Shown here piece by piece: positions 29,982 to 51,180 of a stretch of 64,000 nt of DNA; the stretch's first letter is position 1, and every line of letters starts with the position of its first letter. The translations under genes and the position numbers were made by a program. The DNA is from Oscillospiraceae bacterium (GTDB taxonomy: Bacteria > Bacillota > Clostridia > Oscillospirales > Ruminococcaceae): NCBI GenBank assembly GCA_021203065.1, contig JAJQBX010000032.1:496001-560000 (forward strand), in the 5' to 3' direction. The notes below the pieces were generated by a model. The model made no database searches. It was not told the origin of the DNA and saw only the letters and a list, made by a program, of their open reading frames with translations.

Positions 29982-32204
29982 TCATAAGTTATCCAGATAA
30001 GCCTCAGCCGCACGGTTATAGTTGTACATAGCCTTGACCAGATTCTGAAGATTCTCGTCAGAACTACTATCAGACAAAACGCTATATACATAACTCAAAA
30101 CGCTGAATTTCAAAGTGTACACAGCCTCATCATCTTCATAGATAGTCAGATTAACCGGCGAATCCCAGTTCTGAACAAGGATCGTTCCTGAAGACGCTGA
30201 AGTTACACCAGTGCCTGCATCAGTGCCATTAACCGTTACTGTATAACCGGTCTTTGAGGTTGAAATTGTGAATTTAATTTCGCAAGACTCGGTTGTACTG
30301 ATTGCGATGGAAGCATTAACTGTATAATCGTCTGAATCGAGTGTTATGTTGTAAACGTAGCTACTCACATCATCAGCAGTCACACTTGTTACAGCCGTTG
30401 TGGACAAGCCATTATTGGCAAGAGAATCAGTATTCTGATTGACATAAGTCTGCCCATATCCACCATAGTTGAGAAGTGCCAAGAGGAGATCATTCAGATA
30501 AGTTGATGTCGTTGATTTAGCACTTATGCTGTTATAGTACGACCTGATAGAGCCGCCGCCATATGTTCCTACAAGTTCATCACTTCCGTTGTACAGATTT
30601 ATGCTGACATTCTCAGCCATCTGATAGAAGTAAACCCTGCACGTTGCGACATAGTATGTATTTCCACCAGAAACTTTCGCCGTAAGAGTAGTCGATTCGC
30701 TATCTTCTTCGCCGTCAATGACAAACTTGACATAATATCCGGTTGCCGAAGTGTTACTGGTTTCGCTGAAATCGAAGTAATAGTTTATGCCAATCTGAGT
30801 GCCAAGACTAAGCGAACGACCGTAGAGGGTAGGAATAACGTCAGTCGAAGTCTTTGCGGCAATCAGTGCATACGACGATCCTGTAAGGGTATTGGTCACA
30901 TCAACAGTCGAAGTCACATTAGAAGTTGCATCAAATCTGCTACCGGATGCATCAGTGTACCAAGAATAGCCAGTAAAGCTCTGTCCCTGTGCGATCATAT
31001 CACTTGCGGCTAACAAAGTTGCAGTTGAACTTGAACCAGCCATAAATATATCTGCACCAGAAGCAGTTGCTGTGTTGCCATAGATAGCCCCGCCGGTCAT
31101 AGTCAAGCTTGCTCCATTATAAAGATACACTCCACCGCCACCATAGCTACTACTTGTTGCAGTATTTCCGGTAATCGTACCACCAGTCATATATACTTCA
31201 GCAGAAGCAGCGTACATACAAATTCCAGCACCGTACGTTGCGGTATTATTAGAAATTGAACCGCCATTCATGTAGAATGTAGAGTTTGCTTTCATGTAAA
31301 CTCCGCCACCAGCAGTACCCGTTGACTTGTTATTAGTGATACTTCCACCATTCATGATGAAAGTAGCATTATTTAAAAGCACCCCACAATATTTAGAACT
31401 TCCACCTACGCTATTGCTTGTAATACTACCGCCATTCATAATAAATGTTGATCTATTACTATTGCCTGATCCTTTTACAAAAACATATCCTTTGTTGCTA
31501 GAGATAGTTCCGCCATTCATAGTAAAGGTAATGCCATCATAAGAGGAATTACCATTTACATAAATAACATAAGTTCCTGTGTTTTCAGAAATAGAGCCGC
31601 CATTCATGGTGAAGCTGGAACCGCCGCAAAGATATACTCCATAATTGCTCTCTGTGATAGTTCCCCCATTCATAATAAAAGTAGCATTGTAGTAAACATA
31701 CACTGCTCCGGTTGTGCTTCCATTAGTGATTTTACCTGTGCCACTTTCACTGCTATCCTCTAAGGTGAGTTTTCCGTTGACAGTAATTACTTTTCCTGCA
31801 TCTGAAACAGTCAGAGTATGACCTGCAAGATCGAGGATAATATCATCATCACTTGCTATCGTAATAGCTCCGGTTACATCCGCTGACAGTTGAATCGTTT
31901 CACCTGTACTTGCACCGGTTATTGCATCCGAAAGCGATTCATAAGAAGTACCAGTGTCTACATTCTTTGCCACATAGTCTGTTTCATCCGCTGTAAGAGA
32001 AATACCTTCTTCCTCTGCAGCAACAGCAATACCAGAATCTATTTCTCCTTTTATTGTAGTCACGCCTACCGTTTGAGACTGCTCTCCGTCTGTTTCATCT
32101 GCTAAAGATGTGGCGTCCACATTCGCATCTGCAATGACCCCCGTCGGCAAAACTGTCATTATCATGAGCACGCTCAGGACAATGCACATAAGCCTTTTTG
32201 CCAT
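29982..32204 (-). CDS. Secreted beta-helix surface protein, cassette A
   Basis: A 740-residue exported protein. It begins with a signal peptide (MAKRLMCIVLSVLMIMTVLP, cleavage near GVIADA). Residues about 100-390 are tandem units of about 25 residues built on FxMNGGxIxxN, a right-handed parallel beta-helix. The C-terminal 340 residues hold LYGRSLSLGTQIGINYYFDF, VATCRVYFYQMAENV, ILVQNWDSPVNLTIY and YVYSVLSD...NLVKAMYNYNRAAEAYL, blocks also present in cassette B. No LPxTG, SLH, dockerin or catalytic motif is seen, so attachment and role are unknown; adhesion or glycan binding is inferred. ATG follows AAGGAGG in a structured leader. It is the first gene of cassette A. Confidence 0.8.
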   Translation of the reverse strand: MAKRLMCIVLSVLMIMTVLPTGVIADANVDATSLADETDGEQSQTVGVTTIKGEIDSGIAVAAEEEGISLTADETDYVAKNVDTGTSYESLSDAITGASTGETIQLSADVTGAITIASDDDIILDLAGHTLTVSDAGKVITVNGKLTLEDSSESGTGKITNGSTTGAVYVYYNATFIMNGGTITESNYGVYLCGGSSFTMNGGSISENTGTYVIYVNGNSSYDGITFTMNGGTISSNKGYVFVKGSGNSNRSTFIMNGGSITSNSVGGSSKYCGVLLNNATFIMNGGSITNNKSTGTAGGGVYMKANSTFYMNGGSISNNTATYGAGICMYAASAEVYMTGGTITGNTATSSSYGGGGVYLYNGASLTMTGGAIYGNTATASGADIFMAGSSSTATLLAASDMIAQGQSFTGYSWYTDASGSRFDATSNVTSTVDVTNTLTGSSYALIAAKTSTDVIPTLYGRSLSLGTQIGINYYFDFSETSNTSATGYYVKFVIDGEEDSESTTLTAKVSGGNTYYVATCRVYFYQMAENVSINLYNGSDELVGTYGGGSIRSYYNSISAKSTTSTYLNDLLLALLNYGGYGQTYVNQNTDSLANNGLSTTAVTSVTADDVSSYVYNITLDSDDYTVNASIAISTTESCEIKFTISTSKTGYTVTVNGTDAGTGVTSASSGTILVQNWDSPVNLTIYEDDEAVYTLKFSVLSYVYSVLSDSSSDENLQNLVKAMYNYNRAAEAYLDNL

Positions 32205-32421
32205 AAAAAATTCCTCCTTAGTTTTGCACTTGGAGGAAAAATTGATATTAAAAATCCTCCGTGCACTTTGTTAAAATAGTGTCGGAGGTTTGGTATGGGT
32301 ACATGGTGCCGACTGGACTGAGTTTTCAGGAAAAAATTCCCTGAAAAATTTATCCACCAGAGGTTGTACCCCCCCGCATAGTTAAAAGTGGTAAAGACTT
32401 GTTTAGCCCTTCCATAACCAC
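32205..32421 (-). promoter_or_regulatory. Structured RNA leader with bistable switch, cassette A
   Basis: About 217 nt of untranslated leader starting at the predicted transcription start. In order on the minus strand: a 5' hairpin GTGGT / ACCAC (32417-32421 with 32388-32392) with conserved GGAAGGGCT in its loop; a G7 tract; and a domain closed by GGGTAC / GTACCC (32366-32371 with 32297-32302). That domain encloses hairpin TTTTCAGG / CCTGAAAA. Next come four alternating segments: CCTCCG (32283-32288), CGGAGGA (32255-32261), TCCTCC (32232-32237) and the ribosome site GGAGGAA (32211-32217). Pairing 2-3 (11 bp with flanks) frees the ribosome site; pairing 1-2 with 3-4 hides it. The last 90 nt are identical in cassette B. 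Confidence 0.7.
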
Positions 32422-32427
32422 GTTCCA

Positions 32428-32456
32428 ATTATATAACATCGTGGGGAGGTTGTCAA
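32428..32456 (-). promoter_or_regulatory. Perfect-consensus promoter of cassette A
   Basis: Minus strand TTGACA (32451-32456), 17-bp spacer, TATAAT (32428-32433). Confidence 0.9.
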
Positions 32457-48881: not shown

Positions 48882-50745
48882 TCATTCGGTCGCTATATAA
48901 GCCTCAGCGGCAGTATAGTAAGCATACATGCCAACCAGAAGATCTTGAAGCGACTGTGTGCCTTCTCCTTCAGAAACCATATGATAAGCATAGCTCATAA
49001 CACTATAGCCTGTGATCTCATCGTATACAGTACTATCATCAGTCTTCACAACCTTGATAGAATGTGTATTGTCCCAGTTCTGAACTAAAATGTCCGTGAC
49101 TGAAACATAGTATTTGCCGCTATCACTTGTCGGCGTAACTTCTACATCATCCAAGTACACGGTATAATCACTAATATCGTCTACAGTGATAACAAACTTC
49201 AAATCGCAAGAATCATCAAGAACAAGCGTAGGTGCAATTGAAATTCCGTTATTCTCGCCTGAAACATTGGTAGTGTAGGCGAAATTGCTTGCACTTGACA
49301 AAGCCGTCTTATAAGTGCTGAAACTGAAACTATCCAAAAGCCAATAATAAAGATAACCCGCATCATTACTGCCACTATTGTCGTACGTAAGAACCCAATT
49401 TAAGCTTTTATATTCTGTTCCAACTGTTAAAACAGAATACTCAACATCCAAATTCTTCTCCGCCCAAACCTGACCGGTAATTCCGTAAATGCCAAGCCCA
49501 GCAACAAGGGTTTGAAGTTTAGTGCTTCCTTTATTCATAGCTGTCGACATATATGTATAAATCGAATACCCTGTATCCGTGCTTACGATATTTCCCTCAC
49601 CGTCATACAGCGTAGCCGTTATATCGTCAAGCATCTGATAGAAGTAGACCTTACAAGTAGCGACATAGTAATAACCGCCGTTACCATCCGATACTGTGCT
49701 CTGCGTCAGATAAATTTCGTCAGTACGTGTAGTACTTTCATTAGCGACAGTGAACACAACATAGTAATCCTCCGGATTCGTAACCCCGCTACAGTCGAAG
49801 TAATAATTAATACCAATCTTCCCGCCAAGGCTGAGGGAACGACCGTAGAGGGAGATGGAGGACTCTGATTTTTCAGCCGCCTTAAGGCACAGAGTGTCAT
49901 AACTTTCATTGATTTCCTCTTCAATGTAACTGCTCGACCCCACAGTATAACGGCTACCACTTGCATCGTTGAACCACAGGTAGTTAGTGAAATCTACATC
50001 ACAATAATCGCATCCCATTCCATCAGGAAAAATAATAGTACTCACGGAATACGTGCCACAGGCGTATATGTCATCAGCGGCAATATCCGCACTATTCCCG
50101 TATAGTACACCCTCCGCAAAATTAAATTCTGATCTGTTAGTGTTTCCGCTGAAACCAACACTTACGCCACCGCCATATCCGCTGGTGCTGTTATCTGTAA
50201 TCATTCCACCTATCAGCATAATCACCAACAAAAACACCACCGCCATAGCAAATCGTAGGGAAATCATCACTGCATGCACTGTTGCCAGTAATTGTTCCAC
50301 CATTCATAGTGAATGAAGCAGTGGCTATTTCGGCACCTACTTCGCCCATAACAAACACGCCACCGCCACAGATGTACATATAGGCTGCACCATAATAAAA
50401 ACATTTCCCAGAACCGCCTGTAATAATGCCGGTACCTTCAAAATCATCAGTGTCATCCAGTGTAAATACTCCGTAAACTGTAATGACACTATCCTGTCCT
50501 GTACCAGTAATAGAATAACCTTTTAAGTCGATAGTAACTTCCTCTCCCAATGGAATAACGATGTCATAATCTGTCAACACAAGATCTTCTTCAAGCCAAT
50601 AATAGCCTGAACTCAACTGACCATATACCTCATTAATGTAATCAACTGTAAGCGCCTGTTCATTATAATCTGCCACAACCCCCGTCGGCAAAACTGTCAT
50701 TATCATGAGAACGCTCAGGACAATGCACATAAGCCTTTTTGCCAT
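48882..50745 (-). pseudogene. Secreted beta-helix surface protein, cassette B, frameshifted
   Basis: Copy B of the surface protein, split over two frames. The first frame (50745 down to a stop at 50191) has the same signal peptide as copy A (MAKRLMCIVLSVLMIMTVLP) and beta-helix units such as SFTMNGGTITGN and CYGGGVFVGDYA. The second frame (open from before 50303 to 48882) resumes with IGGMITDNSTSGYGGG and carries the C-terminal blocks LYGRSLSLGGKIGINYYF, VATCKVYFYQM, ILVQNWDN and LQDLLVGMYAYYTAAEAYI. A one-base shift near 50200-50220 (GATTATGCTGATAGG) would join them into a protein of about 620 residues. It may be a real mutation, a phase-variable state or an assembly error. The leader and promoter are intact. 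Confidence 0.75.
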
Positions 50746-50940
50746 AAAAAATTCCTCCTTAGTTTTGCACTTGGAGGAAAAATTGATATTAAAAATCCTC
50801 CGTGCACTTTGTTAAAATAGTGTCGGAGGTTTGTAGTGGGTACGAGATTTTTTGGATCTCAGTCGATTTCGGGACGAAATCGAGTACCCCCCCCGCAGTC
50901 ATTCATGTGGTTCAGCTTTTTTCAGCCCTTCCACCACATG
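50746..50940 (-). promoter_or_regulatory. Structured RNA leader with bistable switch, cassette B
   Basis: About 195 nt. The 5' hairpin is CATGTGGT / ACCACATG (50933-50940 with 50904-50911), longer than in copy A but with the same GGAAGGGCT loop motif. A G8 tract follows. The closing stem GGGTAC / GTACCC (50884-50889 with 50838-50843) encloses TCGATTTCG / CGAAATCGA and GAGAT / ATCTC hairpins instead of the copy A ones. The final 90 nt with the four CCTCC/GGAGG segments are identical to copy A. Structure kept while sequence changed supports an RNA element. Confidence 0.7.
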
Positions 50941-50945
50941 TAAAC

Positions 50946-50974
50946 ATTATAATACTCTTCGTGGGGGATGTCAA
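50946..50974 (-). promoter_or_regulatory. Perfect-consensus promoter of cassette B
   Basis: Minus strand TTGACA (50969-50974), 17-bp spacer, TATAAT (50946-50951). Confidence 0.9.

Positions 50975-51104: not shown

Positions 51105-51180
<76 letters not shown>

Follow-up and report, generated by a model that had tools for sequence, protein, structure and literature searches.

The window, i.e. the whole 64,000-nucleotide stretch of DNA from an Oscillospiraceae bacterium that was analysed, carries two leaders, at positions 32202-32421 and 50743-50940, both on the minus strand. They had been proposed in a sequence-only reading, and sequence and predicted fold confirm that both exist as described. 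The genes 3' of the two leaders begin with the same signal peptide (Table 1); the 740-aa product of the first has no match in Pfam or NCBIfam, and the 184-aa frame behind the second has none in Pfam. As judged by sequence comparison, the last 91 nt of the two copies, including the ATG, are identical (90 nt had been claimed), and the 5' parts differ in sequence yet keep their stems, including the reported GTGGT/ACCAC and CATGTGGT/ACCACATG pairs in the 5' domain. The 5' ends formerly put at 32421 and 50940 agree to within 1 nt with the starts that the -10 boxes imply, and the earlier reading of four CCTCC/GGAGG segments is also correct. The motif GGAAGGGCT, by contrast, had been assigned to the loop of a simple hairpin, and the predicted folds place it in an internal loop and an inner stem.

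From the 5' end, the leader consists of a hairpin at the start of the transcript (H1), a G-tract followed by UA (segment 0, usually G6-G9), a variable hairpin of up to ~80 nt located between the G-tract and segment 1 (P1), and the series CCUCC, GGAGG, CCUCC, GGAGG (segments 1 to 4). Helices between segments are designated 0:1, 1:2, 2:3 and 3:4.

Table 1. Positions of the leader elements, promoters and neighbouring genes in the window.
Feature	Position	Strand	Basis or remark
Copy 1 -35 box TTGACA	32451..32456	-	sequence
Copy 1 -10 box TATAAT	32428..32433	-	sequence
Copy 1 transcription start	~32421	-	inferred from the -10 box, not mapped
Copy 1 H1, transcript 5'-end hairpin	32388..32421	-	fold; shape kept despite sequence changes in other copies
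Copy 1 segment 0, GC + G7 tract	32369..32377	-	0:1 pairing from variants and truncated-transcript folding
Copy 1 P1 domain GGGTAC...GTACCC	32297..32371	-	fold; P1 pairs covary in short-hairpin copies; overlaps the final 3 G of segment 0
Copy 1 segment 1, AAACCTCCGACACT	32278..32291	-	sequence comparison
Copy 1 segment 2, AGTGCACGGAGG, then ATTTTT (terminator-like)	32256..32267	-	
Copy 1 segment 3, TTTCCTCCAAGTGCA	32225..32239	-	
Copy 1 segment 4, ribosome site AAGGAGGAA	32211..32219	-	
Copy 1 downstream gene, 740 aa	29982..32204	-	signal peptide; repetitive, extracellular-looking sequence
Copy 2 -35 box TTGACA	50969..50974	-	sequence
Copy 2 -10 box TATAAT	50946..50951	-	read from sequence; another TATAAT further downstream
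Copy 2 transcription start	~50939	-	inferred
Copy 2 H1	50904..50940	-	fold
Copy 2 segment 0, GC + G8 tract	50887..50896	-	sequence
Copy 2 P1 domain	50838..50889	-	fold
Copy 2 segment 1	50819..50832	-	
Copy 2 segment 2	50797..50808	-	
Copy 2 segment 3	50766..50780	-	
Copy 2 segment 4, ribosome site	50752..50760	-	
Copy 2 downstream open frame, 184 aa	50191..50745	-	signal peptide as in the copy 1 gene
tRNA gene	51105..51177	+	just upstream of the second leader

The RNA had been placed in the leaders of both surface cassettes, which stands, but its restriction to these two does not. A DNA search of the same genome gave 10 matches, which amount to nine leader copies, L005 and L010 being the same site, and inspection by eye raised the number in this genome to about 18. 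A covariance model built from only the last ~95 nt of the leader (R1) found matches in 12 of 60 relatives, of which 11 belong to the genus and one to the wider order; the match in the latter (L041), which has no G-tract, was dropped as a chance match, so that 90 of the 91 matches collected were retained. A second model, of the core (R2), matched 12 of the 31 genus genomes including G008, where the match (L141) is antisense of a gene start and was likewise dropped as due to chance. The 29 inspected sites added by R2 bring the total to 119 in 11 genomes; the ~18 sites of the own genome comprise 15 of these together with L109, L119 and L120.

The 11 genomes are from uncultured Oscillospiraceae/Ruminococcus species that are related and make up a single clade; in the other 20 of the 31 genus genomes the search turned up no convincing member. 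In a tree built from a single-copy exonuclease (27 rows for 27 of the 31 genomes, leaving out the misframed G024, the partial G017, G021 with no match and the fragments of G022), they make up one side of a fully supported branch, and the enzyme is at least 96% identical to that of the own genome within the group and at most 93% outside it. Three of 394 genomes in a sample of the order were matched, two of them of the genus, and the match in G086 (L160) was rejected on inspection, the core being absent. Outside the genus this sample, searched with strict filters and 12 candidates scored per genome, held no convincing member; the same settings recovered only 8 of the 16 R2 matches of the own genome, and a few copies elsewhere could therefore be missed. 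An exact pattern matched 18 stretches in 84,980 species genomes, 16 of them in Oscillospiraceae/Ruminococcus MAGs that were largely among the genomes already searched. A match in Lewinella (L175) lies inside a coding sequence, and L185, from Clostridiales MAG U.9_7, is a genuine member; the isolate name suggests that this MAG comes from the same sample as U.9_1. Viral contigs gave no match to the exact pattern. We infer a gut habitat for these species from their family, the records seen being silent on habitat.

The own genome has 35 occurrences of the string GGGGGGTA, only part of them leaders, as against one of the reversed string. GGGGGGTA is also in excess in other members of the genus, mostly outside leaders: among 99 sites in G010, G017 and G021, 30 were viewed and none had the full core, many lying in coding sequence, with a few in promoters or before genes for secreted proteins.

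Conservation of sequence is confined to the G-tract, the UA, ACCC/GCCC and AA-CCUCC. An uninterrupted run of 6-9 G is found at the expected place in 86 of the 91 R1 matches, which is an independent check since the R1 model did not contain the G-tract; a run of at least 6 is present in 28 of the 29 sites added by R2, a model that itself contains the tract. A promoter was recognisable at 100 of 117 sites examined, and at 91 of these the first paired base of H1 is at +1 to +6 of the inferred start. Given that 5'-end hairpins commonly stabilise mRNA, H1 may do so here. Of 116 sites, 85 have four or more consecutive U after segment 2 and 31 do not; among random windows nearby, the count is 203 of 2340. 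The same core precedes both versions of the leader, copies that end in a ribosome site and copies followed by a terminator; L188-L190 have a U-run after the 1:2 hairpin, and no later terminator-like hairpin was seen by eye in the stretch shown. The multi-hairpin domain closed by GGGTAC/GTACCC, as reported, is present in the window but is not a general feature; it is unlikely to be an aptamer because many copies have a plain short hairpin in its place. No conserved aptamer is apparent in the family, and no ligand-binding domain was identified.

The folds of the two window leaders are stronger than those of dinucleotide shuffles (z -5.6 and -5.0), none of 200 shuffles being as good. The z-score is -7.0 for L008 and only -2.0 for L007, which is without the G-tract domain and for which 5 of 200 shuffles were as good. 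Homologues of the claimed RNA with compensatory changes were looked for and exist; as judged from the alignments, such changes occur in P1, H1, H2, 1:2 and 3:4. In the alignment fitted to the model (A3), 15 of the 17 pairs of 1:2 and 3:4 are changed on both sides somewhere, a count unaffected by removal of the chance row L041, and the share of paired cells, 91.6% as aligned, drops to at most 62.4% when the partner is slid by 1-3 columns. In the unfitted alignment (A5), the CCUCC/GGAGG of 1:2 is nearly invariant and has no change on both sides; the pairs with both-sided changes number 4 against 4.2 in shuffles, i.e. there is no excess, but changed cells and the covariation score do exceed the shuffles. 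P1 has both-sided changes in 4 of 8 pairs of A5. For H1/H2, one subgroup of 14 rows (A6, which omits L065, one of 15 distinct H1 rows) has such changes in 5 of 15 pairs and 20 changed cells, compared with 5.8 in shuffles. All the shuffle controls, like the swap controls below, take no account of the relatedness of the sites. At L109, segments 1 and 2 read by eye as CCCCG and CGGGG.

The sequence-only reading had set 2:3 against 1:2 plus 3:4 as mutually exclusive pairings, which is supported, more weakly so for 2:3. The flanks of segments 2 and 3 pair at -4.14 kcal/mol with their own partner and at -3.21 kcal/mol with swapped ones (0 of 2000 swaps as low), this pairing being absent in the subfamily of the L022/L070/L089 type. 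The four segments of that scheme thus hold, but a fifth partner had been missed, namely the G-tract, which pairs with the first CCUCC. Three natural variants support this 0:1 pairing: L025, L087 and L206 lack the G-tract, yet in each of them segment 0 has kept its complementarity to segment 1 of the same site. A fit as good arose in 250, 2 and 106 of 5000 shuffles, respectively, so that L025 and L206 are only moderately improbable by chance; the stretches compared were hand-picked.

Ribosome-site copies precede, as seen by eye, mostly signal-peptide proteins with repetitive sequence and also short peptides, two of which stand beside larger frames resembling peptide-maturation genes. Downstream of terminator-type copies, Pfam identified a chain-length protein (Wzz) and an AAA ATPase (L050), pilin domains (L191 and L202), PP2C phosphatases (L105 and L106) together with a protein kinase (L105), a conjugation-type coupling ATPase (L095) and a dynamin-like GTPase (L021), and gave no match downstream of L188. 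These genes can be read as a cell-surface and secretion regulon.

In our assessment, the leader is probably a multi-copy five-segment relay attenuator that is OFF by default, with a trans-acting effector likely. The segments, most of the helices and the gene set emerge from sequence comparison, and the order of events and the OFF default are those predicted by folding. During transcription, segment 0 would pair with segment 1. Segment 2, on emerging, would invade from a CACU/AGUG toehold, form 1:2 and displace 0:1, and the 1:2 hairpin, followed by a U-run in most copies, may itself terminate transcription. Where transcription continues, 3:4 would hide the ribosome site in most copies, and the others have a separate terminator after the core. 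If 0:1 is held, segment 2 would pair with segment 3, the terminator would be lost and the ribosome site would become free (ON). The toehold route, the effector and the direction of ON are what we infer.

In predicted folds of transcripts ending after segment 1, 0:1 exceeds 0.5 in 65 of 85 cases, the other 20 sites not favouring it even in the short transcript, and once segment 2 is included 1:2 exceeds 0.5 in all 85. Of the 76 full leaders, 74 have a ribosome site with a predicted pairing above 80%; OFF is the arrangement of the minimum-energy fold for 67 of them, and for 9 it is not. The ON arrangement is predicted to cost a mean of 9.4 kcal/mol (sd 4.3) over OFF in the 76 leaders and is lower than OFF in L097 and L099. 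Segments were located by pattern rules for these energies (76 sites), the truncated folds (85), the U-runs (116), the 2:3 flanks (62) and the distances from the inferred start (100 of 117), and their assignment is doubtful at some sites, e.g. L032, L048, L069 and L097. As the default looks OFF, protection of 0:1 has to come from an effector or from a kinetic delay. The likeliest trigger would be an effector that acts in trans, be it a small signal molecule or an RNA-binding protein; by stabilising the element formed by the G-tract, P1 and AA-CCUCC, it would switch the surface and secretion regulon together. Members of the family probably silence surface- and secreted-protein genes until some signal turns them on.

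No Rfam 15 family reached the gathering score over the window or 20 loci, other than the tRNA in the window, which leaves the earlier proposal of a new candidate RNA standing. With permissive settings, the two window leaders and 16 loci gave sub-threshold matches only, the best being to RUF1 of Plasmodium at L191 (35.4 bits against 70 required, E 0.004). No description of this RNA was found in the literature, subscription papers and supplements being outside the search. Riboswitch and attenuator leaders with alternative terminator or ribosome-site hairpins are the general kind, and leaders that switch between hairpins are well known. The family shares with them mutually exclusive helices that, as found by sequence comparison and prediction, would control a terminator or a ribosome site, two outputs from one core, and copies before functionally related genes. 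It differs from them in the G-tract entry segment, the freely variable sequence of H1 and P1, the lack of an identifiable ligand-binding domain and the occurrence here in one clade only. The earlier comparison with translational riboswitches is apt as regards the exclusive helices, but many copies resemble transcription attenuators more than switches of translation alone. Classical attenuators such as trp have the hairpin chain 1:2, 2:3, 3:4, which is found here as well, with segment 0 as an extra upstream segment. Leader-peptide attenuation was set aside provisionally: some copies have long open frames across the leader, but the G-tract varies in length by single bases, so any leader reading frame would shift. 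In pyrG-type attenuation, G residues are added and the G-run pairs with the C/U-rich arm of a terminator-like hairpin; the present family has a like pairing, but its G-run is encoded, is found 27-77 nt into the transcript, counted from the inferred start, and not at the start itself in the 100 sites measured, and is replaced by a mixed-sequence segment 0 at three sites.

The five-segment relay, the entry by a G-tract, the two outputs and the clade-wide use before surface genes appear to be new. One RNA element appears to stand before many otherwise unrelated surface and secretion genes of an uncultured clade, which offers a candidate regulon together with a switching logic and exact sites to test; the effector, once found, would reveal a bacterial signal or an RNA-binding regulator. 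The absence from Rfam and the apparent confinement to one clade indicate that lineage-specific RNA regulation can escape general surveys.

Adhesins, pili and polysaccharide are typical of c-di-GMP regulons, and the c-di-GMP-I riboswitch (RF01051) has targets of kinds similar to those seen here, but the family has no Rfam match. A GGDEF domain was found in none of the 11 leader genomes and in 18 of the other 20 of the genus (G024 and G027 also lack it), and c-di-GMP made by GGDEF proteins is thus an unlikely ligand. RF01051, the only c-di-GMP riboswitch model searched genus-wide, matched 2 of the 31 genomes, neither with the leader; the leaders have no match to it, and their genomes no GGDEF source. 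It is conceivable, if rather unlikely, that a new riboswitch-like signalling RNA with at most ~20 uses per genome has taken the place of c-di-GMP signalling in this clade as the global regulator of surface, pilus, capsule, secretion and peptide genes. The absence of GGDEF argues against GGDEF-made c-di-GMP as ligand and does not prove replacement; the 11 genomes being one clade, loss of GGDEF and gain of the leader may each be single events.

A relay attenuator could also work kinetically and need no effector: whether 0:1 lasts until segment 3 has been made would then depend on the speed of transcription or on the supply of nucleotides, the latter including slippage on the G-tract of the kind seen in pyrG-type control. 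The predicted preference for 0:1 in the nascent transcript, its loss once segment 2 is made and the nearly always pure G of the tract are in keeping with this, and repeated-nucleotide addition at transcript starts is documented for pyrG and other genes (PMC4448216). However, the distance of the tract from the inferred start, the complementarity kept without a G-tract at three sites and the targets seen, which are surface genes and not nucleotide metabolism, make this explanation improbable.

If the leader were structured without switching, H1 would protect the mRNA, the hairpins would insulate or terminate and 3:4 would merely lower translation. Such a role would fit the position of H1 at the inferred 5' end (91/100) and the strong preference for OFF at equilibrium, but would leave unexplained the 0/1 complementarity, the mutual fit of the 2:3 flanks and the presence of one core before both terminators and ribosome sites; we regard it as quite improbable. 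That the element acts at the level of DNA, with GCGGGGGGTA as an operator or a length-variable phase-variation tract and the hairpins incidental, is very improbable: TTGACA-N-GGGGGTAWAATG does occur in promoters 23 times in 13 of the 31 genus genomes (reversed control, 0) and tract length differs between near-identical copies, e.g. L016 and L052, but the RNA helices have compensatory changes, L022, L070, L079, L088 and L100 follow another gene with no promoter seen beside them, the promoter form is also found in 5 genomes without the leader, and tracts of 6-8 are short for phase variation.

As a separate observation, GCGGGGGGTA also forms the spacer and the start of the -10 box of sigma-70-like promoters at L108, L113, L114, L118, L123, L125 and 23 sites in the genus. 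Leader copies L001-L004 are mosaic, with near-identical 5' parts joined to different 3' parts or the reverse, which suggests gene conversion between paralogous leaders and signal peptides; the shared last 91 nt of the window copies, taken with mosaics such as L003, likewise point to recombination between paralogous leaders. The core variant L109 (G000:C2:17107) lies before a short peptide of the double-glycine type, which, by eye, is a possible bacteriocin precursor. In L006, L007, L059, L061 and similar copies, the leader promoters before MAKRL-type proteins contain CCCCCAC / TGGGGG boxes, often as inverted repeats around the -35 box (e.g. CCCCCATGA...TCATGGGGG), and these boxes are a possible shared operator.
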